Source of the DNA: Cucumis sativus
Taxonomy: Eukaryota > Streptophyta > Magnoliopsida > Cucurbitales > Cucurbitaceae
NCBI RefSeq assembly: GCF_000004075.3
Contig: NC_026661.2
Span: forward strand, 19,248,307 to 19,312,306
Direction: 5' to 3'
DNA length: 64,000 nucleotides
The stretch's first letter is position 1. Every line of letters starts with the position of its first letter. The notes below the pieces were generated by a model. The model saw nothing but the letters and a program-made list of their open reading frames with translations. It was not told the DNA's origin and ran no database searches. This document shows, piece after piece, positions 17,088-60,951 of this stretch. The translations under genes were made by a program, and so were the position numbers.

Positions 17088-20059
17088 TAACCTATTCTTT
17101 TTAAAGGTAATTTCATATTATTAGTGATGCAAGTGATTCGAATCAAAATGAATCAAAATATAGTAAAATTTCATTTATTTATATAAAGACATCGATATAC
17201 TTTTATAAAATCTAAAATTTTACTATATTTTATAAATAGTTTCAACCGTTTTATAATTTACAATAAAAATACATGTGTTTGACAATTTATTCTACAAGTA
17301 CAAGTTTGTTTGATTTGCTATATACTAAAAATACTTTTATTAATTTTAAATTGCAATAAAAAATGGTCATATGGGAATAGTAGTTGAAAGTGGCCAATTG
17401 ACCATAAAACAATTGCCAAAGATGAGATGAGACAAAGAAACTTTCACTATATAAACTATCACTATATAAATGCTTATTGTTTTCTAATGCATGTACCTTT
17501 TAGAGATGAGATGAGACAAACAAACACCTAATAATTGGAACTAAATGAGAATGAAAAATAAAATACATCAATGTGTAAGTTTTTACATTTTTAGAATTGT
17601 TTTGAAAGCATTAATGCTTTTCAATTCCACCTCAAATTTGTATTAAAAATCCACAATTTTAAATGAATAACAACTACTTTTGTTTAATTAAATTATACTA
17701 AATAGGAAAAGTTTCACTTCACTCTCTCATTTTGCAAATTGTCTTTAAATAAGATGAAAATTGTTAATGTGTGATGACATCATTTAATTTGCAACAAGTA
17801 AATAAAATATTGATTAGGTAATTCATATCAACCATACCTTTCAATATTAAATAATACACTATAGCAACATTGATAGTCTGTATAGTGATCGTAATCAAAT
17901 CACATATATAAGTGCTTTCTAACCTTTACACATCATTTTCCATATTTCATTTTCACGAAAAGCCATAAAGTTTTTAACAAATTTAAACATTAATGGTATT
18001 TTTAGAACAAATTCCAAAATTCCAAAATAAAAAATAATTTAACTCAAGATGTAATGATATAATTGAAATAAATATATTCTAAATATACGCGTAAAAGATA
18101 TAACTTATTGTTTTTAATTAAACACTTAAAATATATTCTAAATATATGTGTGAATATTTATTAAATTAATTGAACTGACTTGAAATTTTATTGAGTGTTG
18201 AATATGTTTTAAAATCATTTTATTTTGTTTTGTTTAAAAAAACTAAACATGTATTATTATTGCATTGCATAGGAATCTTTGTTAAGTTCATGCATGTAAT
18301 AGCTTTATAGGAGGATTCTCCCTTTACAATCCCACATGAAATCAGTTTACTAAGCTTAATTTGTTTTGAGTTATATTATAGATATGTGGTATTAAACTTA
18401 TGGTCAAAATTTAATTAGGTGACATCACATCATACTTTATCTCAACTTGAGGGTATATTATTCTAAGCCACACAAGTAATTTCTTTAAGAAAAACAAAAT
18501 TTGATAACAATATCCTAATCTAATTCCACCATGAGTGCCAATACAAATATACAAATATACAAACATAATAGTTATGCCACGTGTCAAACCCTATGGTTAA
18601 AAGTTTGGTTATGATGATTTTCAAAATTCCTTTTGTAAGGAAAGAAAAAGAAAAGGGAATTTTATGTAATGCATCCTTGGTTGGTGACCAAAAATTACTT
18701 TATCTTCACCTACCTTCAATTAATGAATTAGGAATTCTTACTGCAAACTTGGGTTGGTGATGATAGCAACATTTTAAGTGAAGTTTTAAATTTTTTTTAA
18801 AAAAAACCTAAATAAAATTTAATTATAGATTTATTAGGTAAAAGTTAAATCGTAAACTTTATTCTTATGGTTTAACTTTTGTTTTTATTTTAGAAATATC
18901 AATATCGAGAGAGAATTGAGATGTTGTATTCATGGTCTTATAAAATGTTATGAACGAAAGAATATAAATGTTACTAAGATTAAAATATATTATGTTGTGT
19001 TTGATAAATTTACAAACTTTTAATTTTCTATCTATTCTCTAAATGTTTAAATTTTATAGGTAATGTATCATTTTATAATAATTTTGTTTTAAAATTATAA
19101 GTTAAAAGGCTTTATATTAAACAAAAATATATTTAATTTAAGATTATTAAAAATTGTAAAATATGTTAAAAGTGTGTAGGCATGAAGATGGTGGTGTGGT
19201 AACAATTTGCCTTAAAATGAGTGCGAGAAGGGAGGTGTTGAGTCGCACTCCTGGTCGCGTGTTTCCAAGAAAACTCTCTCAATTTAACCTTCACACTACA
19301 CCAATCTTAGTATTCCAACAAGTCAATTCCAACTCCAACAATATACCTCAATCAAATTAGTGAAAAAGAGTTGTGAACCACAAACCATGTACCCAAACAT
19401 TTTATTTCTTTTTTAGTTTAAATATCTCGTATATAATATTTAAAATATTTTCTACTTGTACAAAGATTCCTCGTTTACTTTTTCTTGCCATAAATTCTAT
19501 TAGGACAGTAACTTTTTCTATACTCTAAATAGTAAGTTTCAAAGTGTTCAAGTGCATCATGCATGCCAAGACATGTTCTCAAGAGTGACACTAAAAAACT
19601 AAAAACAAAAAGCATTTATGAAATCCCAATTTAATCAAATCCTAAATATTTTTCACTAAAAAAATGGAACATAAATGGGATATTTTTGTTTTCAAATTGG
19701 CAAGCCAGCATGCAGCACGTTGTTGACGTGTCCTTCCACGTCGGATTCTATTTATATATTTTTACCACAGTAAAAAGAGAATAAAATTAAAGTCGTTGAC
19801 TCTTCTTTAGCCGGAGAAGCGCGTGAAGCTGATGCCGGATACAAATCGGCAAAGCCCCGACACGTCATCGAGATGCTAGTATCAAATATTGTCCCTTGGA
19901 TCTCCCTTCACCAACTCTATTTGAACGGTCACGATCTTCCACGTCCAACGTTCGGAAGAATCTTTTCGAAATGCCATGACTAGTCCCTATAATCCTCCCT
20001 CTTGGCTCCCTAGGGCATCCCAACCGGTTATTCCGGTAGCCGGGAAGGTGGCTGGACGC

Positions 20060-20067
20060 TATAAATA
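20060..20067 (+). promoter_or_regulatory. TATA box of SAM synthetase copy A, with ACGT motifs upstream
   Basis: TATAAATA lies in a stretch that is nearly unchanged between the two gene copies (about 19,690-20,190 and 42,715-43,208). Upstream, both copies keep several ACGT cores (near 19,716, 19,724, 19,737, 19,862 and 19,940), the usual targets of plant bZIP and related factors. The leader exon ends with TCATCAG|GT at 20,191. Confidence 0.7.
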
Positions 20068-20191
20068 CCTGCTTTGTTCTTCTCGTAGTCCTTGTACCGT
20101 TGAGCTTCGCCTTCTAATTGAGCTCTGGTTCGGTTGGCGTTTTAGCTCGATTTCTTTCTCTCTTTCAGATCTACGCTGCCGATTTCATCAG

Positions 20192-20996
20192 GTTTGCGAG
20201 CTCTGTTCCACCATTTTTCTTTTCGTCAATCTTTGTTTTCTCATTTCCTCCTTTCCTCCTTTCTTCGATGGTTTATGAATGGATTTAGGGGAATTTTCTC
20301 TTTTTTGTATTCTAGTGGTACTGGTAGATTTGTTTCAAGTTTGTTTCTCTATTCTTCCAGATCTGACAGTTTCTTTTGAATTTTTCTTTCGGAATTAGTG
20401 AAGGATACTTCCATACTGTTTTGTGCTCTCTGAGATTCTGGATCTCGGGCGTTGGGGTTTTTTATTGGCTTTTGGTACCTATGTTTCGTTTGTCAGCTTG
20501 TATTTGTCATTGTTGAATCGTTCGATCCGGTTTGTAAGTAAAATAAATTTTGTGGGCGCACTTGTTTTCCACGGTTTTCGTCTTACGGTTTCATGATTCC
20601 CTAGATCTCTGGTTAGGGCTAGGTTTTTTGTTGGTAATTGGATTTAGTAGGGGACTGTCTCTGTGGTTCAATTGCAGATCCAGTCATCTTCTACATGAGT
20701 GTAGGACTCCTTAGGGAAGATCTTGTGTTTTCTAATTTTAATTTTGTTGCTTCCCTGCTTTTGAACCTGTTTGGTTGTTCAGATTCGTCGAGTCATTTCC
20801 ATTTATTAAAAGTTTCTATAATTTTCTTTGAATCTTCTGAATCTGTGCTTGTATTACCCAGATTTCTATAATCCTATCTTGATTTCAAGTGTGTTGATAT
20901 TTTCAAGCTTAAGCAATACTGATGTGACTAAAACTTAACTAATGGACTGAGTGTTTTTTTGTACGCGAACTAATATGGTGTTTTGTTATGTTTCAG
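20192..20996 (+). other. 5' leader intron of SAM synthetase copy A
   Basis: GT at 20,192 (after TCATCAG) and a TTTCAG acceptor at 20,996, two bases before the ATG. The sequence between is T-rich and has no continuing frame. Leader introns just before the ATG are typical of plant SAM synthetase genes. The copy B intron (43,209-44,020) differs at few places, the largest being about 16 extra bases near 43,362. Confidence 0.85.
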
Positions 20997-20998
20997 AG

Positions 20999-22180
20999 AT
21001 GGAGACCTTTCTATTTACCTCAGAATCCGTAAACGAGGGTCATCCCGACAAGCTCTGTGACCAGATCTCCGATGCGGTGCTTGACGCCTGCCTAGCTCAG
21101 GACCCCGACAGCAAGGTCGCATGTGAGACCTGCAGCAAGACCAACATGGTCATGGTCTTTGGAGAGATCACCACCAAGGCCAATGTGGACTATGAAAAGA
21201 TTGTTCGTGACACATGCCGAAACATTGGATTCATTTCCGACGATGTGGGTCTTGATGCTGACAACTGCAAGGTCCTGGTTAACATTGAGCAGCAGAGCCC
21301 AGATATCGCTCAGGGTGTTCACGGCCACTTCACAAAGCGCCCTGAGGAGATTGGCGCTGGTGACCAAGGGCACATGTTTGGCTATGCCACTGATGAAACC
21401 CCTGAATTGATGCCTCTTAGCCATGTCCTCGCCACCAAACTGGGTGCTCGCCTCACTGAAGTTAGAAAGAACGGCACCTGCCCCTGGTTGAGACCTGATG
21501 GCAAGACCCAAGTCACTGTTGAATACTACAACGACAATGGCGCCATGGTACCCGTCCGTGTCCACACAGTTCTGATCTCCACCCAACACGACGAAACCGT
21601 CACCAATGACGAAATCGCCACAGACCTCAAAGAGCATGTCATCAAGCCAATCATCCCCGAGAAGTACCTCGACGAGAAGACCATCTTCCACCTTAACCCT
21701 TCAGGCCGTTTTGTCATTGGTGGCCCTCATGGTGATGCAGGTCTTACCGGACGCAAGATCATCATCGACACCTACGGTGGTTGGGGAGCTCACGGTGGTG
21801 GTGCTTTCTCCGGAAAGGATCCCACCAAGGTCGACAGGAGTGGTGCCTACATTGTGAGACAGGCTGCTAAGAGCATTGTCGCCAGTGGGCTTGCACGTAG
21901 GTGCATTGTCCAAGTCTCTTACGCCATCGGTGTGCCAGAGCCACTATCCGTTTTCGTCGATACATACAAAACCGGGAAGATCCCCGACAAGGAAATCCTG
22001 GAAATCGTGAAGGAGAACTTCGACTTCAGGCCAGGAATGATCACCATCAACCTTGATCTAAAGAGGGGTGGCAATGGCAGATTCTTGAAGACTGCAGCAT
22101 ATGGACACTTCGGAAGGGACGACCCAGATTTCACCTGGGAAACTATCAAGCCACTCGAGTGGGAGAAGCCTCAATCTTAA
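20999..22180 (+). CDS. SAMS: S-adenosylmethionine synthetase, copy A
   Basis: Makes S-adenosylmethionine from methionine and ATP in the cytosol; SAM feeds methylation, ethylene and polyamine synthesis. A single coding exon gives 393 aa, the usual plant length. Visible motifs: N-terminal [15 protein letters not shown]-binding GAGDQG (119-124), GGGAFSGKD (266-274) and the C-terminal [13 protein letters not shown] region. Residues 71-73 are DTC in the family-typical [12 protein letters not shown]. Residue 114 is Arg, where I recall Arabidopsis MAT1 having the nitrosylated Cys. An in-frame upstream extension lacks family similarity and lies in the leader intron, so ATG 20,999 is the start. GC is high through the exon, with C-ending codons, as in highly expressed genes. 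Only two single-base differences and one complex indel separate it from copy B. Confidence 0.97.
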
Positions 22181-24178
22181 ATGGATAGCGGATTCGTTTG
22201 GTGGTCTCTAATTCCTTACAATTCAATATCTGGGGATTGTTGTTACTTCATGATGAATGATTTTCGTGTTATCTTTTTTCTTTTTTCTGCTGCTTTATGT
22301 TCTCCAAAGCAAATTATATTTGTTCTATTTCCTTTTCCTAGTTTAAATCTTCTTGTAATATTTTTAATATTCTAAATACTATCAATGGAATGAAAAATCA
22401 TTTTGTTAAAAACCTTTTTCTCCCTTCCATTATTTCTTCTTTATTTAATGATTTTGAGTTGATGATGTTTATACACTATGCTATAATCTTGCGGATGAAA
22501 TGGGGTTTTAATATTTGATCAATTTCTTATCCTAAAGTGAGTAAATGACCCCTACTTGCTTAACTCACCTAATCATAAACCTAACAACCATCAAATTAAA
22601 ACATTTAATATAATTAAAGTTGATTACCTCTCACTAAATTGTTAATGATTGGTACAAATCCTTCTACCGTAGTTAAAGTGTCATTACTTGCTTACGTGTT
22701 TAACATTTTGTTTTTATCTAAGAATGTCAAACGTGCATTTTCCTCTTCAATAAATTACATGTGGAATGAGGTTAGGATATATTAGCTCAAATTGACCATG
22801 TCTATCTTTAATTATCAAATTAGACTATAATAAGATGGGAATTTAAACCTCAATTGGAAACCCCAATGGGACCAAAAACCATTTGTTAAATAAAATAGCC
22901 TACAAAATGATTAGTTATTAGTTACTAAAAATGCTGTGGCTCTCAAAATCCTCTTTTAAGTCAAAGCAAACTTTGGCCAATGAGACATTTACAAATAAAA
23001 GCTTAGTCAATTGGACTTCCTTCCATTTTGAACATTCCTTTTTGTAGGGACCAAAAATGAGAAACAAACTCTGATTTTGGATATTATATAATAAGTTGAA
23101 TAATAAATTAAAAATAAAGGAGATTTCTATAAGAAAACTCTCGTAAACCTAAGTTTTTATGTGATTATGTGCATAATTTAAAATTACCTTTATCTATTAT
23201 TAATATAATATGAATATTTTGTCAAATTTGTTATTTTTTACAATTTTCCTTTTCTCATATAATTATTTAAAATAATAACAGTACAACTATTTAAATAACT
23301 TTTAAACATATTTTAAAAAAAATAGGAAATTAGAATAACTTATTCCAAAAATGTAAAGAACAAACACACTTATAGTAAGAAAAACTAAATCCACTTGTCC
23401 TTCAAAATTCAAAGACAAAAAAAAAAGTAACTTTTGTGAAGCTTAAATTCATGGCTTAAATAAGAGAAAAGTCTTACAATAAATATAATACAACAATTAA
23501 ATTTAAAATATTAACGGATATAGTAAAAATGTTTTAAAAAATAAAAATTATAAAAATTATAAAAAAATATAACAAATCTAGCATTAGCTACTTTTGTTAA
23601 AATTTTAGGGCATAATTATTATTCCTAAACACCTTATCAATGATTGTCACACAGAAATTGGAAATTTCATTGTCTCTAAAGTATTTTTGGGCCTTCAGTG
23701 AGCTTTTTGGACAATTTCTATGAATTAAAGGTACAATATGTTTTCTATTTTTAGAATTATTTTTAAGTTTTCCTACATTTATAGGAGGGGAATTGTTATG
23801 AATAATAAAAAGTGAATAAGTTGAATAAAATTTATTACTTTTTAAAGTGTACTCTATTATTTTGTCATTTTGACTATTATCTGTGAGTCTAACCCCTTAA
23901 AATGCCACCGTTACATTTACCCTCTATTTTTCTTCACATCATCTCTAATAAGATCTAGATATGGGCTGGCTCGTTGGACCACGTTGGGCCAAAGGGCCCA
24001 TATCACTCAAACCATTTTAATCCAAAATTAAATTGACCTAAAAATCTTGTTATGAGCCATTTTAACTCTCTAGAAATACATATATGAATAGAATTTTAAA
24101 ATCAAATATATCATAATCTATTTTAAGTTTATTTAATAAAGTCAAAGATAAATGTATCAATATCAAATTTAGAAATAA
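22181..24178 (+). other. 3' region of SAM synthetase copy A and spacer to the kinase remnant
   Basis: The first 200 bases are the 3' untranslated region, nearly the same in copy B. The spacer to about 23,160 matches 45,400-46,190 with roughly 1-2 per cent substitutions. From 23,160 to 23,800 the two copies align only in patches. No gene is seen. Confidence 0.7.
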
Positions 24179-25268
24179 CAAAATACTGATCAAAGATCAA
24201 CGGCTGCGATTTGAAATTGGAGTGGACGCTCAATTTTTCTAATCTACGAATCGTTGCCCCCAAAGTTCTCTTCATTTGCAGTTACTGCTTGGAATAAATG
24301 GATGAATATGAAACGTAATGACTCTGTCTCAATGCGTATTATAAACGGAAGACGAAGGTCGCCGGCGAAAGTTGATCGGAAGTAGGAGACCACTGGCGAA
24401 GTCCAACGAGGTTAACTCAAAGAAAGCTCGACGACTTCGTTCTACCAAGCAGTCGCCTGCTTCGACGTTTCGCTTTGGTGTGTATATATATTTTATTATA
24501 GCCTCCGTTCTAAGCGCGAGCGACCTGTCGTTACTCTGACTGAAGCATTGTGGACTTGTTCCTGTGGAATTTCATATCTGATCAACGGTATGAATCGGTT
24601 TCTTCTCATTTTTACTAGCTACCTGTTGAATTGCTGATGTTTTCTCTCTTTAAATGTTAAAGAATATGCATGATTTTGATGTGCAGTGTATTGCTTTACT
24701 AGGTCCGCTAAATTAAGCTCAATTTGCTGTCAGTGCGGATTCCGGAGTTTTGGCTTTTGAATTGTGATCGACGAGGTGATTTATCGCCTTCTTTTTCGTT
24801 AGTTTGTTATACCAATCTTCTTGATAACGATTTTTTTCCTGAGAACTGCATGTACGTGCGGCTTTTTATCGGATCGTTTTCTTTTTTATTGGTTTGTTTT
24901 ACTCGTTCGTTTGATGTAACTAGAGATATTTTTCGAAATCCAACCCAACGTTAATCAGTATTCTTGCGAGTCCTCGTTAATATTTGTTTAATTTCCGGTT
25001 CTCTAGTGTTTATTTGAATTCTTCATGTGAAGTTGAACACATTTCTGGTTAATACTTCCTGTTTGTAAGGCTGTTCATCATCTGTTCTAACAACGACATT
25101 TTTTCGTTTTCTGTAATGTCATTTAAGCAATATTGTCAGACGAAAACATAAAATAATTAGTTGTTCTAACGACTATTTTTGCACTTGGAGATGGACAAAG
25201 ATTTCCAATAATTTTTATTAACTTACTAATTTTGGCATCAGTTGGCGCATCTGTGAACAAAGAAAACG

Positions 25269-26852
25269 ATGGGATGCTTTGGTTGCTGCGAAGAAGATGC
25301 TATCCAGAAGGCTGCTGATAATAGCAACACGTACCAAGTAAAAACTTCAGCAGGTAATCGTAGTACGGCACTAAATTTCAACCGTACTGAGAGTGATATA
25401 TTCTCATATCGTAATTCATAAACGCATTGAATGGAATCAACAGGAGCTGCTGGTCTGAACACGGATTTATGTTATGTGTGAAATATTATCACTTTGATTT
25501 GTCAAACAAGCCCCTGATATGGTTGCACGGCTTCACTCCACCCGTGTTCTTGGAACCTTTGGCTATCATGCTCCCGAGTAAGTTGATTTGTTCTAATGTT
25601 ATTTCATATACTTCAGTGTGAGTTTCACTTTTCTGCATTTAATCCCACGCTTGAAACTGGCATATTGAAATTAAAGATGCTTACTGCTTAGATGTTCTCC
25701 CATATCTAGACTATTTTAGCCCATTCAAGCACTAGGTTAATGGGCTCTCTGTAAACGAATACACACAAAAGGTACAGCTAACAACTAGGAAACAGAGACA
25801 AGGGCCTAGTGGTTGGGTCAACTTACTGATCATGGCCCACTTGGCCTGGCCACTGTAAAAACCACTCTGGTTCATTGATGCACCAAAGAATTCACATATG
25901 GTACCTTAATAAAGATTGTGAATTAACCGAGAAGAAAAAGTTCTCTTAACTAGCTCTAGCCGCTAGTTGTAGTATTTTTCTTTTACATCAAGACAGCCAA
26001 CTCCCAAGCTATAATATTTAATTACTGCCGGTTCAACTAATGAGGAGAATTAGGATAATCAGTAGATTTTAGGTAACATTTAGTTTAGCGGCTAATTTGG
26101 ATTGATTAGTGTTTAATTAGTTGTTTTTTGTATTTGCTTGTCTATAATTAGCTAATTTAGGCTGTAATAGAGAGCTTTTGAACATCATTTGAACTATCAC
26201 TTCGTTCTTGGGGAGTGTTCTCTCATCTTCATAACGAGTCTGGCTTACGAATTTGGCTTAAACCTTTTCTGTTGTATCATATCCTAGATATAAAATAACA
26301 CAACTCAACAGACTTCATGAGTAACTAATAGAAGATTCTTGAGAAAAATAAAACTGCAGAAGATTTTGAACACATGAATATATTATTGTTGATATAATAA
26401 AAAGTTGCAGGTTCCTTCTCTATAATTAATTCTCCAGGTTTGAATGTAAGACATCACTACATAATCATAATATAGCATTATCAATAAGCTAAATATTGTG
26501 GGTGGCTTCCCATTTTGAAAATTACAGATACGCAATGACTGGACAATTGAATTCCAAGAGTGATGTATACAGCTTTGGCGTTGTCCTGCTTGAACTTTTG
26601 ACAGGAAGAAAGCCAGTTGATCATACATTACCTCGAGGACAGCAAAGCCTCGTGACATGGGTATGTTTTTTACTTTTGTATGCTTATACTCTTCTGATCT
26701 TCCTCCCTTTATCTACCTAATTTCTGAGCAGCTTGAGACTTTGAAATGTTTTGAAACGTAATCAGGCCACGCCCAAACTTTGCGAAGATAAAGTTAAGCA
26801 GTGTGTTGATGCAAAACTAGGAAATGAGTACCCTCCTAAGTCAGTTGCTAAG
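25269..26852 (+). pseudogene. PTI1-like kinase, decayed copy A
   Basis: Remnant of the kinase that is intact at 49,137-53,195. Exon 1 (25269-25353, [10 protein letters not shown]...) is clean. A deletion of about 1.06 kb then joins intron 1 to the last part of exon 4 (25,494-25,577), removing exons 2 and 3 and the glycine loop, active lysine and HRD motif. The exon 4 rest also lacks one base in TCAAACAAGCC, which shifts the frame, and has Val for Ala after DM. Exon 5 (26528-26660) and exon 6 (26766-26852) are intact, but exon 7 is absent because the duplicated block ends in intron 6. The promoter side carries its own 343-base deletion at 24,186. It cannot make an active kinase. Confidence 0.92.
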
Positions 26853-27767
26853 GTACCCCATACGCATACTGTTATTTTCTTGCTTATGTTTGGTAATCAT
26901 ATCTCTCCTTTTTCTATCTCTCTCCTTACTTGTCTGTGTGAGATTCTCTTTCTTTTTTCCTTTATTCTTTTTTTTCTAGTTTTAGATAGAAATTGTATTA
27001 AACCAACATTTCTCTATCTAAGGGGAAGGGGAACAGAGCCCGAAGAGGACATTTTCAATTACCTAGAGCCACAGAGTTTAAATCTTTACCAACAATTTGA
27101 AAATTGAAAAGAGAAATAAGAAAAACTGTTTGCTACAAAACCGATAAGAATTATGAAATACGAAAGGACCCCACATCACTGAGAATATAATTGATTCCTC
27201 ATTCTCATCACGATGTGGGTGATGGATTTTAAAAGGAAGTACTTGAAAAGTTTTTTTTTTTTTTTTTTTTGAAAAACCATTTTTAGCACTTAAGATTAGT
27301 CCATAGATTTCACACCGACTCCATTCGGTAAATGGTAACCATTTTCTTCTATTTTTATTTTTGAAAAACTTAGTCCTATTCTTCTTCAATTTTTATTATG
27401 ATTTTTTACTAAATTTTTATCGTGGTTTTCATCTTTTCATCTCTTAAGTACAACAAGTTGAACTTTTAGCTAAATTTTAAATGAAAAACTAGCTTTTTAA
27501 AACTATTTCTTTCAAGTATTTCAAACTCAACCTTATAATCCAACTAGCTTCTACTAAGATTTAAATTTTAATTCAATTTGATTTGGAGGTTTCAGCATTT
27601 TGATTTTTAATCTCCATTTTTATTATAATGTTCATAGGTTAATTTAAAAGATCTATAGTTAATTAAATTTAACTACATTTTCATCACTCTTAAAATGAAT
27701 TTATATTTCTCACTTCTTAACAAATTTAATTTTATATGTCAAAGACTTAGGTGATTATTTAAGTTAA
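26853..27767 (+). other. intron 6 remnant of the kinase copy A; end of the duplicated block
   Basis: Matches the first 0.9 kb of intron 6 of the intact kinase (51,754-52,654), with small indels, including different lengths of the poly-T run (near 27,250 and 52,158). After GATTATTTA-GTTAA the two sequences stop resembling each other, which fixes the right edge of the duplication to about 27,767. Confidence 0.8.
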
Positions 27768-28359
27768 TAAAATAAAGGGTTAACTTTTTGGTATATAACA
27801 AATTGATGATTTCAAATATAACAAAATTAGTCATATTTATAAGTATACAAAAATTTAGTTTTTATTGGTGATAAATCTCAATAGATTGGAACACTTCATT
27901 ACTAATAAAAAAAATAAAATTTTGATAAATTTGTAAATACTTTTGAATGATATTGTTATTTAAAACAATTTTGGTATAATATAACAAAATGTAAAGTAAA
28001 GGTAGAAGGAAATAAGATAATATGTGAAGCATATAAACCGAGTAAAATGCGAACTTTCCTTCCGGTATTAATTATTATTTTCCATCTAGTACCTCCGTAT
28101 ACTTTCTCTTCACGTCGCAGAGTCATCTGCCACGTCATTACGTGATCATCTTATTTTCCTTTGCAAATTGCAATGTCTTTCTACCCTCATCTGCTTCTCT
28201 AATTGTATGTATATATGACAATATCCTTCCGTACCACAACCGTTCCTTTTAGGATAAAATCAAATTAGATTATAGCAATTCCTAATTCCGATCCTCACCC
28301 ACAGTTCTTCTGGGCTCTCTATAACCTTCTCCATTTTTCCATTTATCTCCAAATTCCTC
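27768..28359. other. AT-rich spacer and promoter of the gene at 28,360
   Basis: Sequence found only once in the window. Near 28,316 CTCTATAACC could serve as a TATA box for the gene starting at 28,360. No other gene is seen. Confidence 0.45.
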
Positions 28360-28912
28360 ATGTCTCTCTCTGCTCTATCCAAACCCAAATCCCTAACCCT
28401 AACCCTAAATCTCCTCCGTCCTCACCTCTTCCGCCGTCCTTTCTCCTCCCCTTCCGATCACGATCTCACCGACCTCCCTGAATCTCCTTCTTCTTCCGAT
28501 CCCCTTCTTCGCAACCTTGAGGACGCTATTCAACGCATCCTCGTTCGACGATCTGCCCCCGATTGGCTCCCCTTCGTTCCCGGCGCTTCCTATTGGGTTC
28601 CTCTGCCTTCTAATTCCCATTTACCTCCCATTGCCAACGTTCTTCGTAACTTGGCTAACCCTCTCTCTCCTGAACAATCCTTGTCTACCACTACCGTCCG
28701 TGGCTGGCCCTCTTCTCATTACTTCATTCAAGGTATTCCTCTTCTCTCGTATTTCGTTTTCATTTCATCTCTACTCTCTCTCTTTCTTTAAATTATTTAT
28801 TTAGGAAATAAAATACCCTTTCATCGTAGGTACGCATCTTCCTTCTCTTGATCCGGAGGTTGACACCACGTCGACTGAATGTGATGCTTCCCTTGACCAC
28901 GAGGAAGGGTGA
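28360..28912 (+). CDS. small hypothetical protein, probable mitochondrial targeting
   Basis: Two exons, 28360-28732 and 28830-28912, GT-AG, joining to 152 codons (151 aa). I do not recognise the product. The first 30 or so residues are rich in Ser, Leu and Arg with few acids (LLRPHLFRRPFSS), which suits a mitochondrial or plastid transit peptide. The middle holds a compact Trp/Pro-rich segment (DWLPFVPGASYWVPLP) that looks like a conserved plant motif, then GWPSSHYFIQG across the splice site, and the C-terminus is acidic (DHEEG). Codons are C-rich and GC stands out from the AT-rich flanks. The bases encoding the residues SLTLTLNL read as a CCCTAA-type telomere-like repeat. Confidence 0.8.
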
Positions 28913-29313
28913 GAATCCGATCTGGGCGTGTTCCTATTAGTTCTCATACTAAACTAGTTTCTGCCCCTGTAGTGAAGTCTGAATTATATTTTCTTTTGCT
29001 CTGCAAGTTATTAGATTTGTATATTGAGAGACTTTTAATCAAATAATTAACTTGATAGCTCCTTTCTTGTGGTTAATTTCTACAAATTAACACTCTTCAG
29101 ATTGTCACATTCTCTACTTTCCTCTACTCTCACTTCATATTGCAACGAGAAGCACACTTCGGTTTGTAGCTTGCTTGGTGTTGTTTGAAATCTTGTGTAA
29201 TTTTTGGAAGATCATTCCTTTTTAGGTTCATCTACTCGCCGCGAGGTTGTTACCTTTCTCTTTTGATATTGTAACCTTGTTTCTTAAAAACAAGACTGTA
29301 GATTTTGGGCGTC
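28913..29313 (+). other. 3' flank of the hypothetical gene
   Basis: T-rich, no open frame of note, no similarity to the rest of the window until the repeat at 29,314 starts. It probably includes the 3' untranslated region. Confidence 0.5.
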
Positions 29314-39100: not shown

Positions 39101-39115
39101 AGCCCCACAACTTTC

Positions 39116-39923: not shown

Positions 39924-42900
39924 CACTCAAAGGTTGAATATGTTTTTAAATCATTTTGTTTTGTTTTATTTAAAAAACTAAACATGTATTATTATTGCAT
40001 TGCATGTGAATCTTTGTTAAGTTCATGCATGTAATAGCTTTTGTCATTTTCTTGTATAGATGGTAAATGGTTTCTTTTTTTTCTAATTTTGAAAAAAAAA
40101 ACTCCTTCTCGTTTTGTGAAAAAATGAATTGTTATAATGTATAAAATAAAATTTAAACTCAATTTAAAAACTATCACTATATATATAAAAAGATGGAGGA
40201 CATTCTCGATAGGGATTCGATTTTCCAATAATATAAATATTCGTTCCTAAATACACAAGGATGACACTATTTTCTCCATAAAGGTTAGAATGAAGACTTT
40301 CCTGACTCCAGTATGCCACATCAACCCCAATTATAGGAGAATTTAAATATATGATATTTTGGTGAACAATATATATCTTAATCAATTGAATTATAATGTT
40401 TTAAAGTTGCAACAGTGTATGAGAAAATAATTAACTTTTCCATAAAGTTCATACATTATACTGTAGGTCAATACTTTTACTTCATTTGATCACATGATGT
40501 TTATAGGAGGATTTTTCCTTTACAATCACAGGTGAAATCAGTTTTAATTTGTTTTGAATTATATTATGGATACGTGGTATTAAACTTATGATCAAAATTT
40601 AATTAGGTAACATCACATCACACTTTATCTCAACTTGAGGGTATATTATTCTAAGCCACACAAGTAATTTCTTTAAGAGGCAAAATGTGATAACAATATC
40701 CTAATCTAATTCCACCATGAAATAAAATAATATAATAGAAAAACTTGAGGTTATGTCACGTGTCAAACCCTATGGTTAAAAGTTTGGTTATGATGATTTT
40801 CAACATTCCTTTTGAAAGGAAAGGAAAAGAAAAGGAAATTTGATGTAATGCAACCTTGGTTGGTGACCAAAAATTACTTCATCTTCACTTACCTTTAAAT
40901 AATGAATTTGGAATTCTTACTGCAAACTTGGGTTGGTGATGATAGCAACATTTTAAGTGAAGTTTTATTTTTTAAAAAAAAAAAACTAAGTAAATTTTAT
41001 AATAAAATTTAATTATAGATTTATTAGGTAAAAGTTAAATCGTATTAAAATTTTATCTTAGAAACAACGAGATCTAAAGAGAATTGAAATGCATTCGTGG
41101 TGTTCGAGAGAAATAAATGTTACCGAGGTTAAAATAATAAATTTTCTATCTTTTCAAATTTTATATCTAATGTCATCATTTTATAACGATTTTGCTTTAT
41201 ATTAGATAAAAATATATTTAATTTAAGATTATTAAAGATTGTAAAATATGTTAAAAGTGTGTAAAATAATTTCAAAGTTCATAGGCTCGTGGACACATTT
41301 AAGAAAAGCCTACCAGTTTATTTAAAAATAAAATAAAAAGTCTATAAAACAAAAAATCAAAGTTAAGTATATAAAAATGAAGAAAAGAGCAAACACTTGA
41401 GAAAAGAGCTTAGAAAAGAAGCAAATCTTTAACGTCTTTCTTGATTTGGTGACACGCGTGAGTTTTGTTTTTCTAGTTCAAACAAAAATTCAACAAACAT
41501 ATACATTGAACAATGACAAATTTTGAAATTCTAAAACTTACCATAATAACAATACAAATTTACTTTCTTTTACTTTCTTTTACTTTCATTTCAGTTCTCA
41601 AGTTAGTAAAAGTATATCCACTTGGTTCAAAACTTTTCCAAATAAATTTAAAAGTTAATAATAATAATAATAATAAGGCATGGAGATGGTGGTGCGGTAA
41701 CAATTTGCCTTAAAATGAGTGCGAGAAGGGAGGTGTTGAGTCGCACTCATGGCCGCGTGTTTCCAAGAAAACTCTCCCAATTTATCCTTTCACTTCAACC
41801 CAAATTTATTGTTGTGGTAAAAAATAAAGAATTCCAAATTTTCCTTTTTTCTCCTTTTGCTTTTTCAGATTTAAATTAGACGCGTAATAAAAGAACTTAA
41901 ATAGCTATTGTCCAATCATCATCCACCACAAACTCTTTTGTATATCGCACATATCCCATCCAGATTCATCCTATTTTTATAATTCAATTTAAACATTTTC
42001 ATCCTATACTTTTAAATTCTTTTTTTAATTTTATATACATTTAATATAAAATTCTACTAAAACTAAAAGAATTAAGATTCAACAAATTTTAAATTATATA
42101 AATCAAAAAGCGAGTTTAACCCATTTATTTAATTACCTTTTAAAATATATTCTATAAAATTAACTTGTGCAGGTTTATTTCGTGACCAAAGATTCAATTA
42201 AAAATTAATTTATACACAATTACAACTAATAATTTGATTTAAGCAAGATTTAAGTCACAAGAAATACTAAACCAATGCCAACCCAAGCTAAATACTTTAG
42301 ACATTCATTTAGGTATTAGAGTTTATTAACTTTGACACCACACTTAAGCAACTTCAACAATATATTTCAACCAAATTAACGAGAAAGAGTTGTGAATGAT
42401 AAACTATGTATTGAGATATATTTCATCTCTTTTTTAGTTAAGTATCTCGTAGATAATATCTAAAATATTTTCTACTTGTACCTAGATTTCTCGTTTACTT
42501 TTTCTTGTCATAAACCGTAAAAGATAGTAATTTTTTCTATGCTATAAATAATAAGTTTCAAAATGTTCAAATGGTTCATGTAAGCCAAGACATGTTCTTA
42601 AAAGCGACCCAAAAAAATTAAAAACAAAAAGCATTTATGAAATTCGAATTTAATCAAATCCTAAATATTTTTCACTAAAAAGATTGAACATAAATGGGAT
42701 ATTTTTGTTTTCAAACTGGCAAGCCAGCATGCAGCACGTTGTTGACGTGTCCTTCCACGTCGGATTCTATTTATATATTTTTACCACAGTAAAAAGAGAA
42801 TAAAATTAAAGTCGTTGACTCTTCTTTAGCCGGAGAAGCGCGTGAAGCTGATGCCGGATACAAATCGGCAAAGCCCCGACACGTCATCAAAATAATAGTA

Positions 42901-43084: not shown

Positions 43085-43208
43085 CCTGCTTTGTTCATCT
43101 CGTAGTCCTTGTACCGTTGAGCTTCGCCTTCTAATTGAGCTCTGGTTCGGTTGGCGTTTTAGCTCGATTTCTTCCTCTATTTCAGATCTACGCTGCCGAT
43201 TTCATCAG

Positions 43209-44020: not shown

Positions 44021-44022
44021 AG

Positions 44023-45210
44023 ATGGAGACCTTTCTATTTACCTCAGAATCCGTAAACGAGGGTCATCCCGACAAGCTCTGTGACCAGATCTCCGACGCG
44101 GTGCTTGACGCCTGCCTAGCTCAGGACCCCGACAGCAAGGTCGCATGTGAGACCTGCAGCAAGACCAACATGGTCATGGTCTTTGGAGAGATCACCACCA
44201 AGGCCAATGTGGACTATGAAAAGATTGTTCGAATGACACTGAACGCGCGAAACATTGGATTCATTTCCGACGATGTGGGTCTTGATGCTGACAACTGCAA
44301 GGTCCTGGTTAACATTGAGCAGCAGAGCCCAGATATCGCTCAGGGTGTTCACGGCCACTTCACAAAGCGCCCTGAGGAGATTGGCGCTGGTGACCAAGGG
44401 CACATGTTTGGCTATGCCACTGATGAAACCCCTGAATTGATGCCTCTTAGCCATGTCCTCGCCACCAAACTGGGTGCTCGCCTCACTGAAGTTAGAAAGA
44501 ACGGCACCTGCCCCTGGTTGAGACCTGATGGCAAGACCCAAGTCACTGTTGAATACTACAACGACAATGGCGCCATGGTACCCGTCCGTGTCCACACAGT
44601 TCTGATCTCCACCCAACACGACGAAACCGTCACCAATGACGAAATCGCCACAGACCTCAAAGAGCATGTCATCAAGCCAATCATCCCCGAGAAGTACCTC
44701 GACGAGAAGACCATCTTCCACCTTAACCCTTCAGGCCGTTTTGTCATTGGTGGCCCTCATGGTGATGCAGGTCTTACGGGACGCAAGATCATCATCGACA
44801 CCTACGGTGGTTGGGGAGCTCACGGTGGTGGTGCTTTCTCCGGAAAGGATCCCACCAAGGTCGACAGGAGTGGTGCCTACATTGTGAGACAGGCTGCTAA
44901 GAGCATTGTCGCCAGTGGGCTTGCACGTAGGTGCATTGTCCAAGTCTCTTACGCCATCGGTGTGCCAGAGCCACTATCCGTTTTCGTCGATACATACAAA
45001 ACCGGGAAGATCCCCGACAAGGAAATCCTGGAAATCGTGAAGGAGAACTTCGACTTCAGGCCAGGAATGATCACCATCAACCTTGATCTAAAGAGGGGTG
45101 GCAATGGCAGATTCTTGAAGACTGCAGCATATGGACACTTCGGAAGGGACGACCCAGATTTCACCTGGGAAACTATCAAGCCACTCGAGTGGGAGAAGCC
45201 TCAATCTTAA
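44023..45210 (+). CDS. SAMS: S-adenosylmethionine synthetase, copy B, with altered helix
   Basis: Same enzyme as at 20,999; 395 aa, two residues longer than copy A. All ATP and methionine site motifs are unchanged (GAGDQG at 121-126, GGGAFSGKD at 268-276). The only protein difference is at residues 71-75, where the family-typical DTC of copy A is replaced by MTLNA. In DNA, 12 bases of copy A (TGACACATGCCG) are replaced by 18 (AATGACACTGAACGCGCG); this reads best as a 2-base gain plus a 4-base gain that together keep the frame. Only two other single-base differences exist in the coding sequence (GAT/GAC at codon 25, ACC/ACG in GLTGR), both silent. The gene has its own conserved promoter and leader intron and looks expressible, but the effect on folding is unknown. 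Confidence 0.95.
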
Positions 45211-48046
45211 ATGGATAGCGGATTCGTTTGGTGGTCTCTAATTCCTTACAATTCAATATCTGGGGATTGTTGTTACTTCATGATGAATGATTTTCGTGTT
45301 ATCTTTTTTCTTTTTTCTGCTGCTTTATGTTCTCCAAAGCAAATTATATTCGTTCTATTTCCTTTTCCTAGTTTAAATCTTCTTGTAATATTTTTAATAT
45401 TCTAAATACTATCAATGGAATGAAAAATCATTTTGTTAAAAGCCTTTTTCTCCCTTCCATTCTTTCATCTTTATTTAATGATTTTGAGTTGATGATGTTT
45501 ACACATTATGCTATAATCTTGCGGATGAAATGGGGTTTTAATATTTGATCAATTTCTTATCCTAAAGTGAGTAAATGACCCCTACTTGCTTAACTCACCT
45601 AATCGTAAACCTAACCATCAAATTAAAACATTTAATATAATTAAAGTTGATTACCTCTCACTAAATTGTTAATGATTGGTACAAATCCTTCTACCGTAGT
45701 TAAAGTGTCATTACTTGCTTACGTGTTTAACATTTTGTTTTTGTCTAAGAATGTCAAACGTGCATGTTCCTCTTCAATAAATTACATGTGGAATGAGGTT
45801 AGGATATATTAGCTCAAATTGGCCAATGTCCATCTTTAATTATCAAATTAGACTGTAATAAGATGGGAATTTAAACCTCAATTGGAAACCCCAATGGGAC
45901 CAAAAACCATTTGTTAAATAAAATAGCCTACAAAATGATTAGTTATTAGTTACTAAAAATGCTGTGGCTCTCAAAATCCTCTTTTTAAGTCAAAGCAAAC
46001 TTTGGCCAATGAGACATTTACAAATAAAAGCTTAGTCAATTGGACTTCCTTCCATTTTGAACATTCCTTTTTGTAGGGACCAAAAATGAGAAACAAACTC
46101 TGATTTTGGATATTATATAATAAGTTGAATAATAAATTAAAAATAAAAGAGATTTCTATAAGAAAACTCTCATAAACCTAAGTTTTGATGTCAATATGTG
46201 CATAATCATTTGAAATATTTTCCTAATCATTTGAAATAATTATATAATATTTAAAATTAGATAGACAGTTTTTGCAAAAATAATTGTATAGAAAATTTGA
46301 TAATTCCTAGAAGTTGTTTTTTAGGACAATTTTTTTTTAAAAAAAATAAATTAAAATATTTATCAACTGTAGTATCAATCCTTATTATTGATAGAATATA
46401 AAAACTTTTGTCATATTGTAAATATTTTGTCAAATTTAATATTTTTAAAATTTTTTCTTTTTTCTTATTTAAAATGACATATAACTATTTAAAATAATAA
46501 TAATACATTTATTTAAATAATTTTTAAATTCTTTTAAAAAAATTAGAAGACTAGAATAACCTATTCCAAAAATGTAAATGACTTCGTGAAATTATATCTA
46601 TACTTTCAAATATTACGAGTAATGTACGTGACATCTCTATTTTCCTCTGGATGAATCCTTAGAATTATTACCTTTGCTTAGCATTTAAGACTGTGGATAG
46701 TAGAATCTGTAATATGTGTGATTGAATTATTTCTTTCTAATGTATTTTTGACAAAGATGATATCCAGAGGATGTGTAAATTGGTGATATTTCCTATAATG
46801 CTCTTTTTGGTTAATTTCATCTCCCTTCTTTTTCTTTTAAGTCTCACAATATTTTATCAAAACACACCTTGATAGATGATTCAAATTTATAAGTTTAAAA
46901 TATATAAATTTATAAGTTCTTTAATTTCTTACCATATTTATAATATAACAAAGTAAAGCATTAGCTATGTTTGTAACTTTTGTTAAAATTTTACACCACA
47001 ATTATTAGATGAATTTATCACGGATATTTTTGTACGTCTATAAAGTATTTTTGGGCGTTCAATGAGCTTTTTGGACCATTTCTATGAATGATACTCTTTT
47101 TTTCTATTTTTACATTTTCCTACATTTATGGGTATGGGAATTGGTATGAATAGTAAAAAAGGAATAAGTTCGATAAAATTTAGGGAAATTTTTAAAAATT
47201 GTAGATTTTATAAAATACTTACGGCCTATATCAAATTCTATCACGAACACTATCACTCATAATCCAAATTTTGTTATAATTTGTAAATATTTTAATTTAT
47301 TTTGTTACTTTTAAAAATGTTCGTAAAATGTAAAAAGTTTCAATATTTGTTTATTTTTTTAAATAATCTCTAAATGGGTTGGTGTATTCCTTATTATTCC
47401 TAAATCTAACCCCTCAAAATGTCACCCGCCCTTACAATTACCCTTTATTTTTCTTCACACACCATCTCTGTTAAGATTTAGATATGGGCCGGCTCGCTGG
47501 ACCCCGTTGGGCCAAAGGGCCCATATCACAAACCATTTTAATCCAAAATTAATTGACCTAAAAATCTTGCTATGAGTCATTTTAACTGTCTCTAAAAATT
47601 CATATAAGAATATAATTTTAAAATCAAATATATCATAACCTATCGATTTAACTTTATTTAATAAAGTCAAAGATAAATGTATCAATATCAAATTTAGAAA
47701 TTACAAAATACATTATTGTAAATGATTTGTCTTTATCATTTAATTTGACCTACATTCTTAAAACCAATATAACTATTGATTATCATCCATAATATATCAT
47801 CAACTCCAAATTTAGAATATTCCTTTATTATTATTATTTTCAGCTTAACAGCAATTTTGACATTAATCAAACTATTAAAATATGCCATGAAGTAATAAGA
47901 TATTAATTCCATGTGAAACGACTTGTCGTTTTTCCAATATCTTGGTCAACTACAGCTCTCCCATCAATACCATTCCGCCACGTCATACATCAACTTGCCA
48001 CCTTCCGAAATCATTCTCAGCCGTCCATCTTTTCGATCTTGACGGT
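45211..48046 (+). other. 3' region of SAM synthetase copy B and spacer to the kinase
   Basis: The 3' untranslated region and spacer match copy A to about 46,190. From 46,200 to 47,130 the copies align only in patches (extra 0.3 kb here). The right part, 47,712-48,054, is the kinase promoter side that is deleted in copy A. No further gene is seen. Confidence 0.6.
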
Positions 48047-49136: not shown

Positions 49137-52100
49137 ATGGGATGCTTTGGTTGCTGCGAAGAAGATGCTATCCAGAAGGCTGCTGATAATAGCAACACGT
49201 ACCAAGTAAAAACATCAGCAGGTAATCGTAGTACGGCACTAAATTTCAACCGTACTGAGAGTCATATATTCTCATATCGTAATTCATAAACGCATTGAAT
49301 GGAATCAACAGGAGCTGCTGGTCTGAACACGGATTTATGTTATGTGTGAAATATTATCACTATGATTTTTAGATGCTCTAGGGAGGCCTTATCTCTATGT
49401 CATTTAATGCGACTGTGATATGTGTTTGATTCTTTTTTAACTGTCTTGTTGTGTTCTGTACTTCTGTATAAAATTGAGGATCCTCTAATGTCTCTGTTCT
49501 TGTCTCTTTTAAGTGGAATAGGATTTATCAAAATATTAAAAGGTAAACCTCTGTCATGTAGGAACTGATGAAAGCTATCACAAACGGCAAACTGCACCTA
49601 AAAGTCCTCCAATAGTGAAAATCCAGCCCATTGAAGTCCCTGCCATATCATTTGAGGAACTAAAGGAGGTAACCAAAAATTTTGATGCCGACTGTCTGAT
49701 TGGAGAGGGTTCCTACGGTAGAGTATACTATGGGGTATTTACAAGTGGGCAGACTGTGGGAATTAAAAAGTTGGATGCCAGCAAACAGTCAGATGATGAA
49801 TTCTTATCTCAGGTTCTTTTTACTACACTAATTTAAGTTGTAGTGTAAAATTAGTTATCATTATATATATTGACTAATTGTTCAAACTAATAGGTCTCCA
49901 TGGTTTCAAGACTAAAGCACGATAATTTTCTAAACTTGATTGGGTACTGTGTTGGTGGCAATTCTCGAATTCTTGCATATGAGTATGCTTCAAATGGATC
50001 TCTTCACGACATTTTACATGGTACATGCGATCAACGTTAGATCGTTGAGTTGTTGAATGCATGATCTTTTTTTGTTATTTTCTTGCATTGTTCCTCAAAA
50101 AGAAGGCAAGATGGGTTGCTTGCCCATGCAATCTGATCGAGCAATTCGAGTTTGCATACCCTATGCAGTTGTATTTGATTAATGCTTTGAAGGCTGATTG
50201 ATATTATCATGACATGTGTCCAATGCAGGGAGGAAAGGAGTCAAAGGATCACAACCCGGCCCTGTTCTTTCCTGGGCACAAAGAGTAAAAATTGCTGTAG
50301 GTGCTGCAAAGGGGTTGGAGTATTTGCACGAAAAGGTCGATCCTCATATCACCCATCGTGACATAAAATCCAGCAACGTACTAATATTTGATGATGATTT
50401 GGCAAAAATTGCTGACTTTGATTTGTCAAACCAAGCCCCTGATATGGCTGCACGGCTTCACTCCACCCGTGTTCTTGGAACCTTTGGCTATCATGCTCCC
50501 GAGTAAGTTGATTTGATTCTAATGTTATTTCATATACTTCAGTGTGAGTTTCACTTTTCTGCATTTAATCCCACGCTTGAAACTGGCATATTGAAATTAA
50601 AGATGCTTACTGCTTAGATGTTCTCCCATATCTAGACTATTTTAGCCCATTCAAGCACTAGGTTAATGGGCTCTCTGTAAACGAATACACACAAAAGGTA
50701 CAGCTAACAACTAGGAAACAGAGACAAGGGCCTAGTGGTTGGGTCAACTTACTGATCATGGCCCACTTGGCCTGGCCACTGTAAAAACCACTCTGGTTCA
50801 TTGATGCACCAAAGAATTCACATATGGTACCTTAATAAAGATTGTGAATTAACCGAGAAGAAAAAGTTCTCTTAACTAGCTCTAGCCGCTAGTTGTAGTA
50901 TTTTTCTTTTACATCAAGACAGCCAACTCCCAAGCTATTGCCGGTTCAACTAATGAGGAGAATTAGGATAATCAGTAGATTTTAGGTAACATTTAGTTTA
51001 GTGGCTAATTTGGATTAATTAGTTGTTTTTTGTATTTGCTTGTCTATAATTAGCTAATTTAGGCTGTAATAGAGAGCTTTTGAACATCATTTGAACTATC
51101 ACTTTATTCTTGGGGAGTGTTCTCTCATCTTCATAACGAGTCTGGCTTACGAATTTGGCTTAGACCTTTTCTGTTGTATCATATCCTAGATATAAAATAA
51201 CACAACTCAACAGACTTCATGAGTAACTAAGAGAAGATTCTTGAGAAAAATAAAACTGCAGAAGATTTTGAACACATGAATATATTATTGTTGATATAAT
51301 AAAAAGTTGCAGGTTCCTTCTCTATAATTAATTCTCCAAGTTTGAATGTAAGACATCACTACATAGTCATAATATAGCATTATCAATAAGCTAAATATGT
51401 GGGTGGCTTCCCAATTTGAAAATTACAGATACGCAATGACTGGACAATTGAATTCCAAGAGTGATGTGTACAGCTTTGGCGTTGTCCTGCTTGAACTTTT
51501 GACAGGAAGAAAGCCAGTTGATCATACATTACCTCGAGGACAGCAAAGCCTCGTGACATGGGTATGTTTTTTACTTTTGTATGCTTATACTCTTCTGATC
51601 TTCCTCCCTTTATCTACCTAATTTCTGAGCAGCTTGAGACTTTGAAATGTTTTGAAACGTAATCAGGCCACGCCCAAACTTTGCGAAGACAAAGTTAAGC
51701 AGTGTGTTGATGCTAAACTTGGAAATGAGTACCCTCCTAAGTCAGTTGCTAAGGTACCCCATACGCATACTGTTATTTTCTTGCTTATGTTTGGTAATCA
51801 TATCTCTCCTTTTTCTATCTCTCTCCTTACTTGTCTGTGTGAGATTCCCTTTCTTTTTTTCCTTTTTTTTTTTTTTTTTCTAGTTTTAGATAGAAATTGT
51901 ATTAAACCAACATTTCTCTATCTAAGGGGAAGGGGGAACAGAGCCCGAAGAGGACATTTTCAATTACCTAGAGCCACAGAGTTTAAATCTTTACCAACAA
52001 TTTGAAAATTGAAAAGAGAAATAAGAAAAACTGTTTGCTACAAAACCGATAAGAATTATGAAATACGAAAGGACCCCACATCACTGAGAATGTAATTGAT

Positions 52101-53195
52101 TCCTCATTCTCATCACGATGTGGGTGATGGATTTTAAAAGGAAGTACTTGAAAAGTTTTTTTTTTTTTTTTGAAAAACCATTTTTAGCACTTAAAATTAG
52201 TCCATAGATTTCACACCGACTCCATTTGGTAAATGGTAACCATTTTCTTCTATTTTTATTTTTGAAAAACTTAGTCCTATTCTTCTTCAATTTTTATTAT
52301 GATTTTTTACGGTGGTTTTCATCTTTTCATCTCTCAAGTACAAGTGGAATTTTTAGCTAAATTTTAAATGAAAAACTAGCTTTTTAAAACTATTTCTTTC
52401 AAGTATTTCAAACTCAACTTTAAAATCCAACTAGCTACCATTGAGATTTGAATTTTAATTCAATTTGGTTTGGAGGCTTTAGCATTTTGATTTTTAATCT
52501 CCATTTTTATTATAATGTTCATTGATTAATTTAAAAGAACTATAGTTAATTAAATTTAACTATATTTTCATCACTGTCAAAATGAATTTATAATTCTCAC
52601 TTCTTAATAAATTTAAGTTTATATGCCAAAAACGGAGGTGATTATTTAGGTTAAAAATGCTAAACTTAAAATTTAAACACCACAGTAAAACAAAACTCAA
52701 ATCTTAACAATCTTAACAATAAAATTGAAACTCCTTGAGGAATGAATTCAAAAACTAATAACCAAGGGTGTAATCTAACATTTTGAAACTCAAGAGCCAT
52801 ATCGGAACTATACCAAAAATCTAAAAAGCCAAAAAAGTATGTGTATGAAAATAAAAAATCACATTCAATAGCTATAAGGAGACACATTATGTCGGCTTGA
52901 AAGAATAACTTTTTCTAAAAATGTATATGGGTCTCAATTTACAAAAACAGTCAATTATGAAGTTACATTACATTTTTGAAAACTTGGCCAGATCTTTTAT
53001 AGAAAAAGGTAATAAAAGTGATATGTAAAAGCAAAGCTGAAGGGAGAAGCAGTTTCATTTTGCTTAGTGATTGTATTTTTACAGTTTGCAGCAGTGGCTG
53101 CATTATGCGTCCAATACGAAGCAGATTTCAGACCAAACATGAGTATTGTAGTCAAAGCTCTTCAACCACTCTTAAATGCCCGTCCTGGTCCTTGA
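49137..53195 (+). CDS. PTI1: PTI1-like protein kinase (receptor-like cytoplasmic kinase VIII type)
   Basis: Membrane-anchored cytoplasmic Ser/Thr kinase of the Pto-interacting 1 type, acting in defence and oxidative-stress signalling downstream of AGC kinases such as OXI1 in known cases. Seven exons: 49137-49221, 49562-49812, 49894-50020, 50229-50502, 51429-51561, 51667-51753, 53085-53195; GT-AG, 356 codons (355 aa, family-typical). MGCFGCC at the N-terminus suggests acylation on Gly2/Cys3/Cys6/Cys7. The glycine loop is [11 protein letters not shown] (76-86), the active lysine K97 in GIKKLD, the catalytic loop HRDIKSSN (197-204) and ADFDLSNQ (216-223) has DFD instead of DFG, as is usual in this family. 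Activation-loop [15 protein letters not shown] is intact. A leader intron ends at 49,109. Intron 6 (1.3 kb) contains the right edge of the duplication. Confidence 0.94.
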
Positions 53196-60925: not shown

Positions 60926-60951
60926 AGGAGAAGGCATAATCGCTTAGAACA

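Follow-up and report, generated by a model that had tools for sequence, protein, structure and literature searches.

When one of two copies of a plant segment is now much shorter than the other, has the short copy been losing DNA, or has the long copy been gaining it? We asked this of a locus in cucumber (Cucumis sativus), within a window of 64,000 nucleotides (the whole stretch analysed, C7:19,248,307-19,312,306 of a 226.6-Mb genome in 88 contigs) that carries two copies, A and B, of a segment with an S-adenosylmethionine (SAM) synthetase gene and a kinase gene that we take to be PTI1-like. The copies can be accounted for by a duplication, stepwise loss from A, islands of gene conversion and some gain in B, a scenario to which, taken as a whole, we assign a probability of about 0.7.

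Self-versus-self blastn of the whole window and a global affine alignment of A and B, made with one parameter set, both place the copies in direct orientation and colinear:

16,820-27,770, forward strand: copy A, eroded, with its right edge inside the last kinase intron (blastn and alignment)
29,311-52,657, forward strand: copy B, fuller (blastn and alignment)

A first-pass annotation of this DNA had described two colinear blocks, with A shorter by 4.6 kb, and both points are reproduced here (its spans are 10,614 bp for A and 15,187 bp for B, a difference of 4,573 bp). Its bounds at 17,154 and 37,468 do not hold, however, as homology begins at 16,820 in A and at 29,311 in B, and a gap of 7.86 kb lies to the left of them. 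The annotation made no mention of the kinase gene in the block, nor of the mosaic of divergence described below.

Aligning the blocks and listing the gaps with their junctions, as had been proposed, reveals a lopsided set of large gaps. Between A 17,149 and 27,770, a script finds 11 B-only gaps of at least 100 bp and a single A-only gap. The 11 include a 2,165-bp piece that belongs to the larger left-hand gap, leaving 10 versus 1 within the block (two-sided binomial, 0.012), or 11 versus 1 if the left-hand gap is counted once (0.006). The earlier statement that nearly every large gap is missing from A is therefore borne out by 10 of 11 in-block gaps. Such counts depend on the alignment parameters and on the merging of adjacent gaps; the count of 10 versus 1 is unmerged, and some spans listed below comprise several adjacent alignment gaps merged. 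Small insertions and deletions (indels) in the same interval number 17 A-only and 15 B-only at 1-4 bp, 11 and 8 at 5-19 bp, 4 and 4 at 20-39 bp, and 4 and 5 at 40-99 bp. Those below 40 bp are symmetric (32 A-only versus 27 B-only), and the asymmetry is confined to the large gaps. Insofar as these gaps are losses, they are concentrated in one copy, as in fractionation.

The polarity of each gap was judged on internal evidence, namely gene content, fillers, cut elements, microhomology and genomic uniqueness. Three genome searches scored the best 40 of 416, 320 and 1591 candidates, and five B-only stretches (37,756-37,932, 46,583-46,956 and 47,183-47,404 not among them) were searched again alone, with all candidates scored. 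Gene content settles one gap, which lies in the kinase gene:

49,137-53,195, forward strand: putative PTI1-like kinase gene of B, whose reading-frame pieces match the exons of its C3 paralogue
25,269-26,860, forward strand: kinase pseudogene of A, in which the middle exons are deleted and the first exon is retained together with introns and exons on the 3' side
49,359-50,414, forward strand: 1,056-bp B-only segment with kinase exons and a 3-bp ACT repeat, corresponding to a deletion in A at 25,490/25,491

The right edge of the 1,056-bp gap falls inside an exon that is matched unbroken by paralogues on C3, C4 and C6 (among the best 40 of 1591 candidates), and the C3 paralogue was additionally compared and translated across the gap edge. 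Because the exon is unbroken in all three paralogues, the segment has been lost from A, which on gene content is the derived, shortened copy at this gap. A 1-base difference also shifts the frame in the rest of the remaining exon of A. The last kinase exon (53,085-53,195) lies outside the duplicated block, to the right of the B edge at 52,657, and thus the block edge falls in the last kinase intron; this exon is found once in the window, beside B, and a search of the window for that of A did not find it. Pfam matched two of four exon open reading frames tested for the B kinase, at 50,213-50,506 (Pkinase and PK_Tyr_Ser-Thr) and at 51,373-51,621 (PK_Tyr_Ser-Thr, with a Pkinase match below the cut-off), and gave no match for those at 49,540-49,836 and 51,646-52,005.

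At four further gaps loss from A is favoured, on evidence read from the sequence of the junctions and their surroundings:

37,756-37,932, forward strand: 177-bp B-only segment, in place of which A has a 47-bp filler
17,423-17,469, forward strand: this filler in A, which over its first 19 bp matches a site that begins 37 bp past the filler end
38,523-39,752, forward strand: 1.23-kb B-only segment (two adjacent gaps merged), with a presumably Harbinger-like miniature inverted-repeat transposable element (MITE) at its right end
18,068-18,091, forward strand: filler in A, of which 18 of 18 bp match a site at 18,129, starting 37 bp past the filler end
46,260-46,379, forward strand: 120-bp segment present in B only, with its right edge inside a dispersed element, which is truncated in A
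47,704-48,046, forward strand: 343-bp B-only segment flanked by the 8-bp repeat CAAAATAC

The first filler agrees at 18 of 19 positions with the A site at 17,507 and at 19 of 19 with the B version at 37,970, as if its template in A had changed since it was copied. None of 1000 plain base shuffles and 32 of 3000 random placements were as good; for the second filler the same controls gave 0 of 1000 and 5 of 3000. Since these fillers in A match their own flanks, the 177-bp and 1.23-kb gaps are best read as losses from A. At the 120-bp gap, the A remnant of the dispersed element ends at the gap, whereas the B copy runs on, as do seven fetched members of the family, and loss from A is favoured for this reason. 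The 343-bp segment shows no terminal inverted repeat within 40 bp of either end, and a genome search with all candidates scored found no second copy of it; these two properties together with the 8-bp microhomology again favour loss from A. The 8-bp repeat was also considered as a target-site duplication of a hAT element, a candidate rejected because neither a terminal inverted repeat nor a second copy was found.

Four other B-only stretches were probably lost from A as well, the evidence here being their uniqueness in the genome:

29,599-37,458, forward strand: 7.86-kb B-only stretch, the largest gap, where A has about 60 bp (17,087-17,148) instead
40,039-40,499, forward strand: 461-bp B-only segment with a 3-bp TTT repeat
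41,263-41,675, forward strand: 413-bp B-only segment with a 1-bp repeat and (TAA)n at its right edge
41,790-42,348, forward strand: 559-bp B-only segment (merged), versus 38 bp in A

Deletion predicts that the B-only pieces have no full second copy, and the pieces tested alone fit this expectation. No second long copy of the 7.86-kb stretch was found in the genome. Its parts 29,599-34,530 and 35,000-37,458 recur elsewhere only as fragments of up to about 190 bp, and a dispersed repeat at about 34,541-34,980, with matches in both orientations, is what most of the best 40 of 416 places match. For 40,039-42,348, only fragments of about 42-56 bp recur in the genome outside copy A, and on this ground the 461-, 413- and 559-bp pieces were rejected as dispersed repeats. 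A genome search with 38,523-39,530, in which all candidates were scored, likewise found no second copy.

The remaining listed gaps are gains in B or were assigned to neither copy:

39,835-39,923, forward strand: 46-bp unit repeated in tandem (1.9 copies) and restricted to B, which gained it
46,201-46,257, forward strand: 21-bp tandem repeat, 2.8 copies, in B (44-bp gap); probably a gain in B
46,583-46,956 in B versus 23,362-23,579 in A: polarity assigned to neither copy
47,183-47,404, B-only and largely dispersed repeat: polarity assigned to neither copy
18,855-19,108 in A, where A is the longer: polarity assigned to neither copy

Several of these observations weigh against a history dominated by loss from A. 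One of the gaps represents a tandem-repeat gain in B, and a second probably does too, so that to this extent the earlier picture of loss is incomplete. The MITE of B (39,545-39,749) belongs to a family with many copies genome-wide and with ends GGGTGTGTTTGG...CCAAACGGACCCT and TTA/TAA edges in most of seven fetched members; judged by the ends of these seven copies, it lacks its own right end exactly at the edge of the 1.23-kb gap, and because it is clipped there, a captured fragment in B is possible at this gap. A dispersed repeat forms part of the sole A-only segment above 100 bp; this segment may have been gained by A, and thus says little about loss from B.

These features might suggest that most of the large gaps are insertions in B, either of transposons or of captured DNA. 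Besides the clipped MITE, B-only segments hold dispersed repeats (34,541-34,980 and about 47,183-47,330) and two tandem-repeat stretches absent from A, and taken by itself the 8-bp direct repeat fits a target-site duplication equally well. We nevertheless regard this explanation as very unlikely, given that the 1,056-bp segment consists of kinase exons, that the 343-bp segment has neither inverted ends nor another copy, and that none of the B-only pieces searched alone has a second copy in full. Moreover, the templated fillers sit in A, and the ends of B-only segments have no comparably strong flank match, with the exception of the 46-bp tandem repeat. Loss from A is thus decided at one gap and favoured at four more. 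The first-pass annotation had proposed that the redundant copy decays by repeated small deletions; the direction of this proposal is upheld, but its scale is not, as the losses range from 0.1 to about 8 kb and the small indels are symmetric.

What mechanism might have removed these pieces? Direct repeats of 8, 3 and 2-3 bases had been noted at the junctions, and they are real: the 343-bp gap has one of 8 bp, the 1,056-bp gap one of 3 bp (ACT) and the 461-bp gap another of 3 bp (TTT). Only the longest exceeds chance. Relative to 20,000 random endpoints, the 8-bp repeat has a probability of 0.00055, and repeats of at least 3 bp one of 0.078; among the four clean junctions, 8 bp is therefore beyond chance, and 3, 3 and 1 bp are within it. 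Of four A-side fillers tested, two are templated from the immediate flank in the manner of polymerase-theta-mediated end joining. The footprints in A, with microhomology of up to 8 bp and flank-copied fillers, look like end joining of this type by analogy with known products. Two points count against this view: repeats of at least 3 bases arise at 7.8% of random endpoints, and a flank template was sought for the 62 bp of A at 17,087 and the 38 bp at 19,292 and was found for neither.

The copies are also unevenly diverged. The whole alignment has 385 mismatches in 10,297 aligned columns, with 371 differences in 10,027 aligned columns to the right of 17,100, and a two-state model with tracts of 1.1% and 8.9% divergence (log-likelihood -1432.7) is superior to a single rate (-1587.2). 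The longest identical run is 664 columns, whereas 2000 permutations gave none above 348; mismatch counts per 250 columns have a variance of 102.6, and 2000 permutations did not exceed 19.9; another identical run of 552 aligned columns is mostly kinase intron (indels were skipped in both runs). Substitutions of 1-2 per cent, as had been estimated for the well-aligned parts, are thus found in three tracts (1.1%), with 8.9% elsewhere, making the pair a mosaic rather than uniform. The two-state model places the low-divergence tracts as follows:

A 17,375-17,836, forward strand: first low-divergence tract
A 19,678-23,118, forward strand: low-divergence tract around the SAM synthetase gene, 33 of 3418 columns differing
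A 24,566-27,442, forward strand: low-divergence tract around the kinase gene, 31 of 2837 columns differing

Silent divergence in these tracts is significantly lower than in neighbouring tracts. Outside marked exons, 64 of 5050 columns differ in the low tracts versus 298 of 3329 in the high tracts. The SAM synthetase genes show 3 synonymous differences in 264.8 sites (1.1%, with the complex change described below excluded), and one kinase-intron block in a low tract shows 0 differences in 422 columns, for which coding constraint cannot account and gene conversion can. This pattern suggests that A and B are old duplicates that have been partly re-homogenised by gene conversion.

Alternatively, the duplication might be young, at about 1%, with the 9% tracts being fast-evolving or misaligned intergenic DNA and no conversion having occurred. 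Two of the three low tracts do surround the SAM synthetase and kinase genes, such that constraint could explain part of the mosaic. Furthermore, the high tracts hold 17 of the 19 gaps of at least 40 bp, and gaps break the alignment and may inflate divergence nearby. (Low tracts cover 64% of the A span and contain two of these gaps, for which the binomial value is 2e-6, a figure that is partly circular because gaps disturb the alignment around them.) When only blocks of at least 100 columns are used the contrast falls, but it is still 7.1% (120 of 1686) in high tracts versus 1.2% (55 of 4658) outside exons in low tracts, and the unchanged intron block and the synonymous value of the SAM synthetase genes are further points against this explanation. 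We consider it unlikely.

The mosaic also bears on whether A could have been born with its gaps, in one patchy, template-switching copying event from B. Several gaps with short homology, together with templated inserts in one copy, are consistent with such an event, and the 1.54 kb that separates the copies would permit a non-tandem insertion of A. However, the 1,056-bp gap lies in the kinase tract, where so few columns differ, flanked by tracts of about 9%, and it therefore looks younger than the duplication; nor does a single event predict a mosaic. An origin of this kind is decidedly unlikely.

The first-pass annotation had held that the SAM synthetase gene of the eroding copy is kept, and it is:

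20,999-22,180, forward strand: SAM synthetase A (SAMS-A), open over 393 codons without an internal stop, with the canonical RDTCR and the Pfam S-AdoMet_synt N, M and C domains
44,023-45,210, forward strand: SAM synthetase B (SAMS-B), open over 395 codons, with the three Pfam domains

Both copies are full length and open in frame with all three domains, and the only other SAM synthetase gene found is a third one on C6 (3 of 3 candidates scored). The non-canonical change is in SAMS-B rather than in SAMS-A. At about 44,232-44,247 the two differ by a complex change, readable as +2 and +4 bases and frame-neutral, that turns DTC into MTLNA. Because SAMS-A, the C6 paralogue and two solved structures, 6vcx and 6vcz (presumably Arabidopsis enzymes), all have DTC, SAMS-B is the derived copy at this motif. 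The change (44,227-44,250 region) sits within an otherwise identical stretch, and it is therefore either recent or a local consensus error.

Such an error would be in keeping with an assembly artefact, whether haplotypic duplication or misjoin, and the locus is read from one assembly only. An artefact is hardly credible, though, in view of the distinct flanks, the tracts of about 9%, and a kinase pseudogene in A where every kinase piece sought in B is present.

Upstream of the SAM synthetase genes, the 413- and 559-bp differences (41,263-42,348) may separate their promoters. A quantitative PCR primer pair for the cucumber SAM synthetase gene Csa_7G419610, given in Table 1 of PMC8034359, matches the window exactly at two places, 20,090-20,183 and 43,107-43,200, so that in this assembly an expression assay with these primers would not separate SAMS-A from SAMS-B. 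A literature search on the SAM synthetase family or a tandem copy in cucumber, on conversion in cucurbit duplicates and on the locus tag found no description of this tandem pair among the entries listed.

What history would have produced the locus? Most likely, it began with the duplication, in direct orientation, of a segment that held a SAM synthetase gene and a PTI1-like kinase gene. As homology stops in the last kinase intron, A probably never had a complete kinase, and B would be near the ancestral arrangement. Separate events would then have removed pieces of about 0.1 to 8 kb from A, while gene conversion held the SAM synthetase and kinase tracts at about 1% and the remainder drifted to about 9%. 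The kinase-exon deletion, being inside a homogenised tract, probably postdates the most recent exchange in that tract. In this account the gaps, the mosaic, the exon content and the fillers are read directly from the sequence, and the polarity of the non-genic gaps, the breakpoint of the duplication, the repair pathway and conversion as the source of the mosaic are inferences. With a plant substitution rate of 7e-9 per site per year, 9% would correspond to some 6 to 7 million years and 1% to less than 1 million, as orders of magnitude only.

The starting point of this history depends on the DNA between the copies:

27,771-29,310, forward strand: spacer of 1.54 kb, with a putative small gene (open reading frame from 28,360)

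A Pfam search with the putative small gene gave no match. Apart from short matches to repeats within its first 250 bp, the spacer is single copy; if its counterpart in A was lost, the tandem unit could begin with it on the left. Either the tandem unit is 27,771-52,657 and the spacer piece was lost from A, or A was inserted beside the spacer. Relics in A of the spacer, or of the 1.14 kb to the right of B that holds the last kinase exon, were sought, and at E 0.01 neither has a homologue elsewhere in the window. The same is true of the left flank of A (16,450-16,819); all three have only matches of 17-25 bp to unrelated places in the window. Farther out, the locus is flanked by genes for a ZNF598-type protein (14,846-16,450; Pfam PAH_ZNF598) and a FAD-binding protein (60,940-62,253; Pfam FAD_binding_4), the latter presumably DWARF1/DIMINUTO-like.

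It is tempting to go further and connect conversion with erosion. Where A and B still exchange sequence, A would be largely spared indels, and where exchange has stopped, A would lose DNA and B keep it. The genes would thereby be sorted between the copies, with the canonical SAM synthetase in A, the complete kinase (and perhaps the small neighbour gene) in B, and the motif change in SAMS-B arising after the last exchange. We offer this as a tentative idea, possible but more probably wrong than right.

The locus shares features with three described systems. In biased fractionation, as described for maize homeologues (Woodhouse et al. 2010; PMC2893956), one duplicate preferentially loses DNA and genes, with direct repeats at some deletion edges, as here. 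Unlike the maize case, which follows tetraploidy and is described there through intra-exon deletions of 5-178 bp, sometimes larger, the cucumber locus is a local segmental duplication with losses of 0.1 to 8 kb, its microhomology is above chance at one junction, and polarity comes from internal evidence. Polymerase-theta end joining in Arabidopsis, according to a 2024 study in PNAS Nexus (PMC10923293), leaves deletions that may be kilobases long, with about 3 bp of microhomology and with fillers often taken from the immediate flank. The kilobase deletions, short microhomology and flank-templated fillers of this locus are similar, although here the events are historical and read from sequence alone, and two other fillers lack a template. 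Finally, sequence exchange between duplicates is reported for the RPP8 family (PMC6771003), and would be represented here by the patchwork of low and high divergence; the difference is that this locus involves two adjacent copies with housekeeping genes, one of them eroding, in one genome, with divergence as the evidence of exchange.

The cucumber locus is hence a good example of a known process. The direction of loss is mostly as first proposed, and it is the eroding copy, A, that carries the canonical SAM synthetase. The locus is small enough to be genotyped in many accessions, and it offers a compact natural record of the dismantling of a duplicated plant segment, in which large losses with end-joining-like scars stand beside probable islands of gene conversion.

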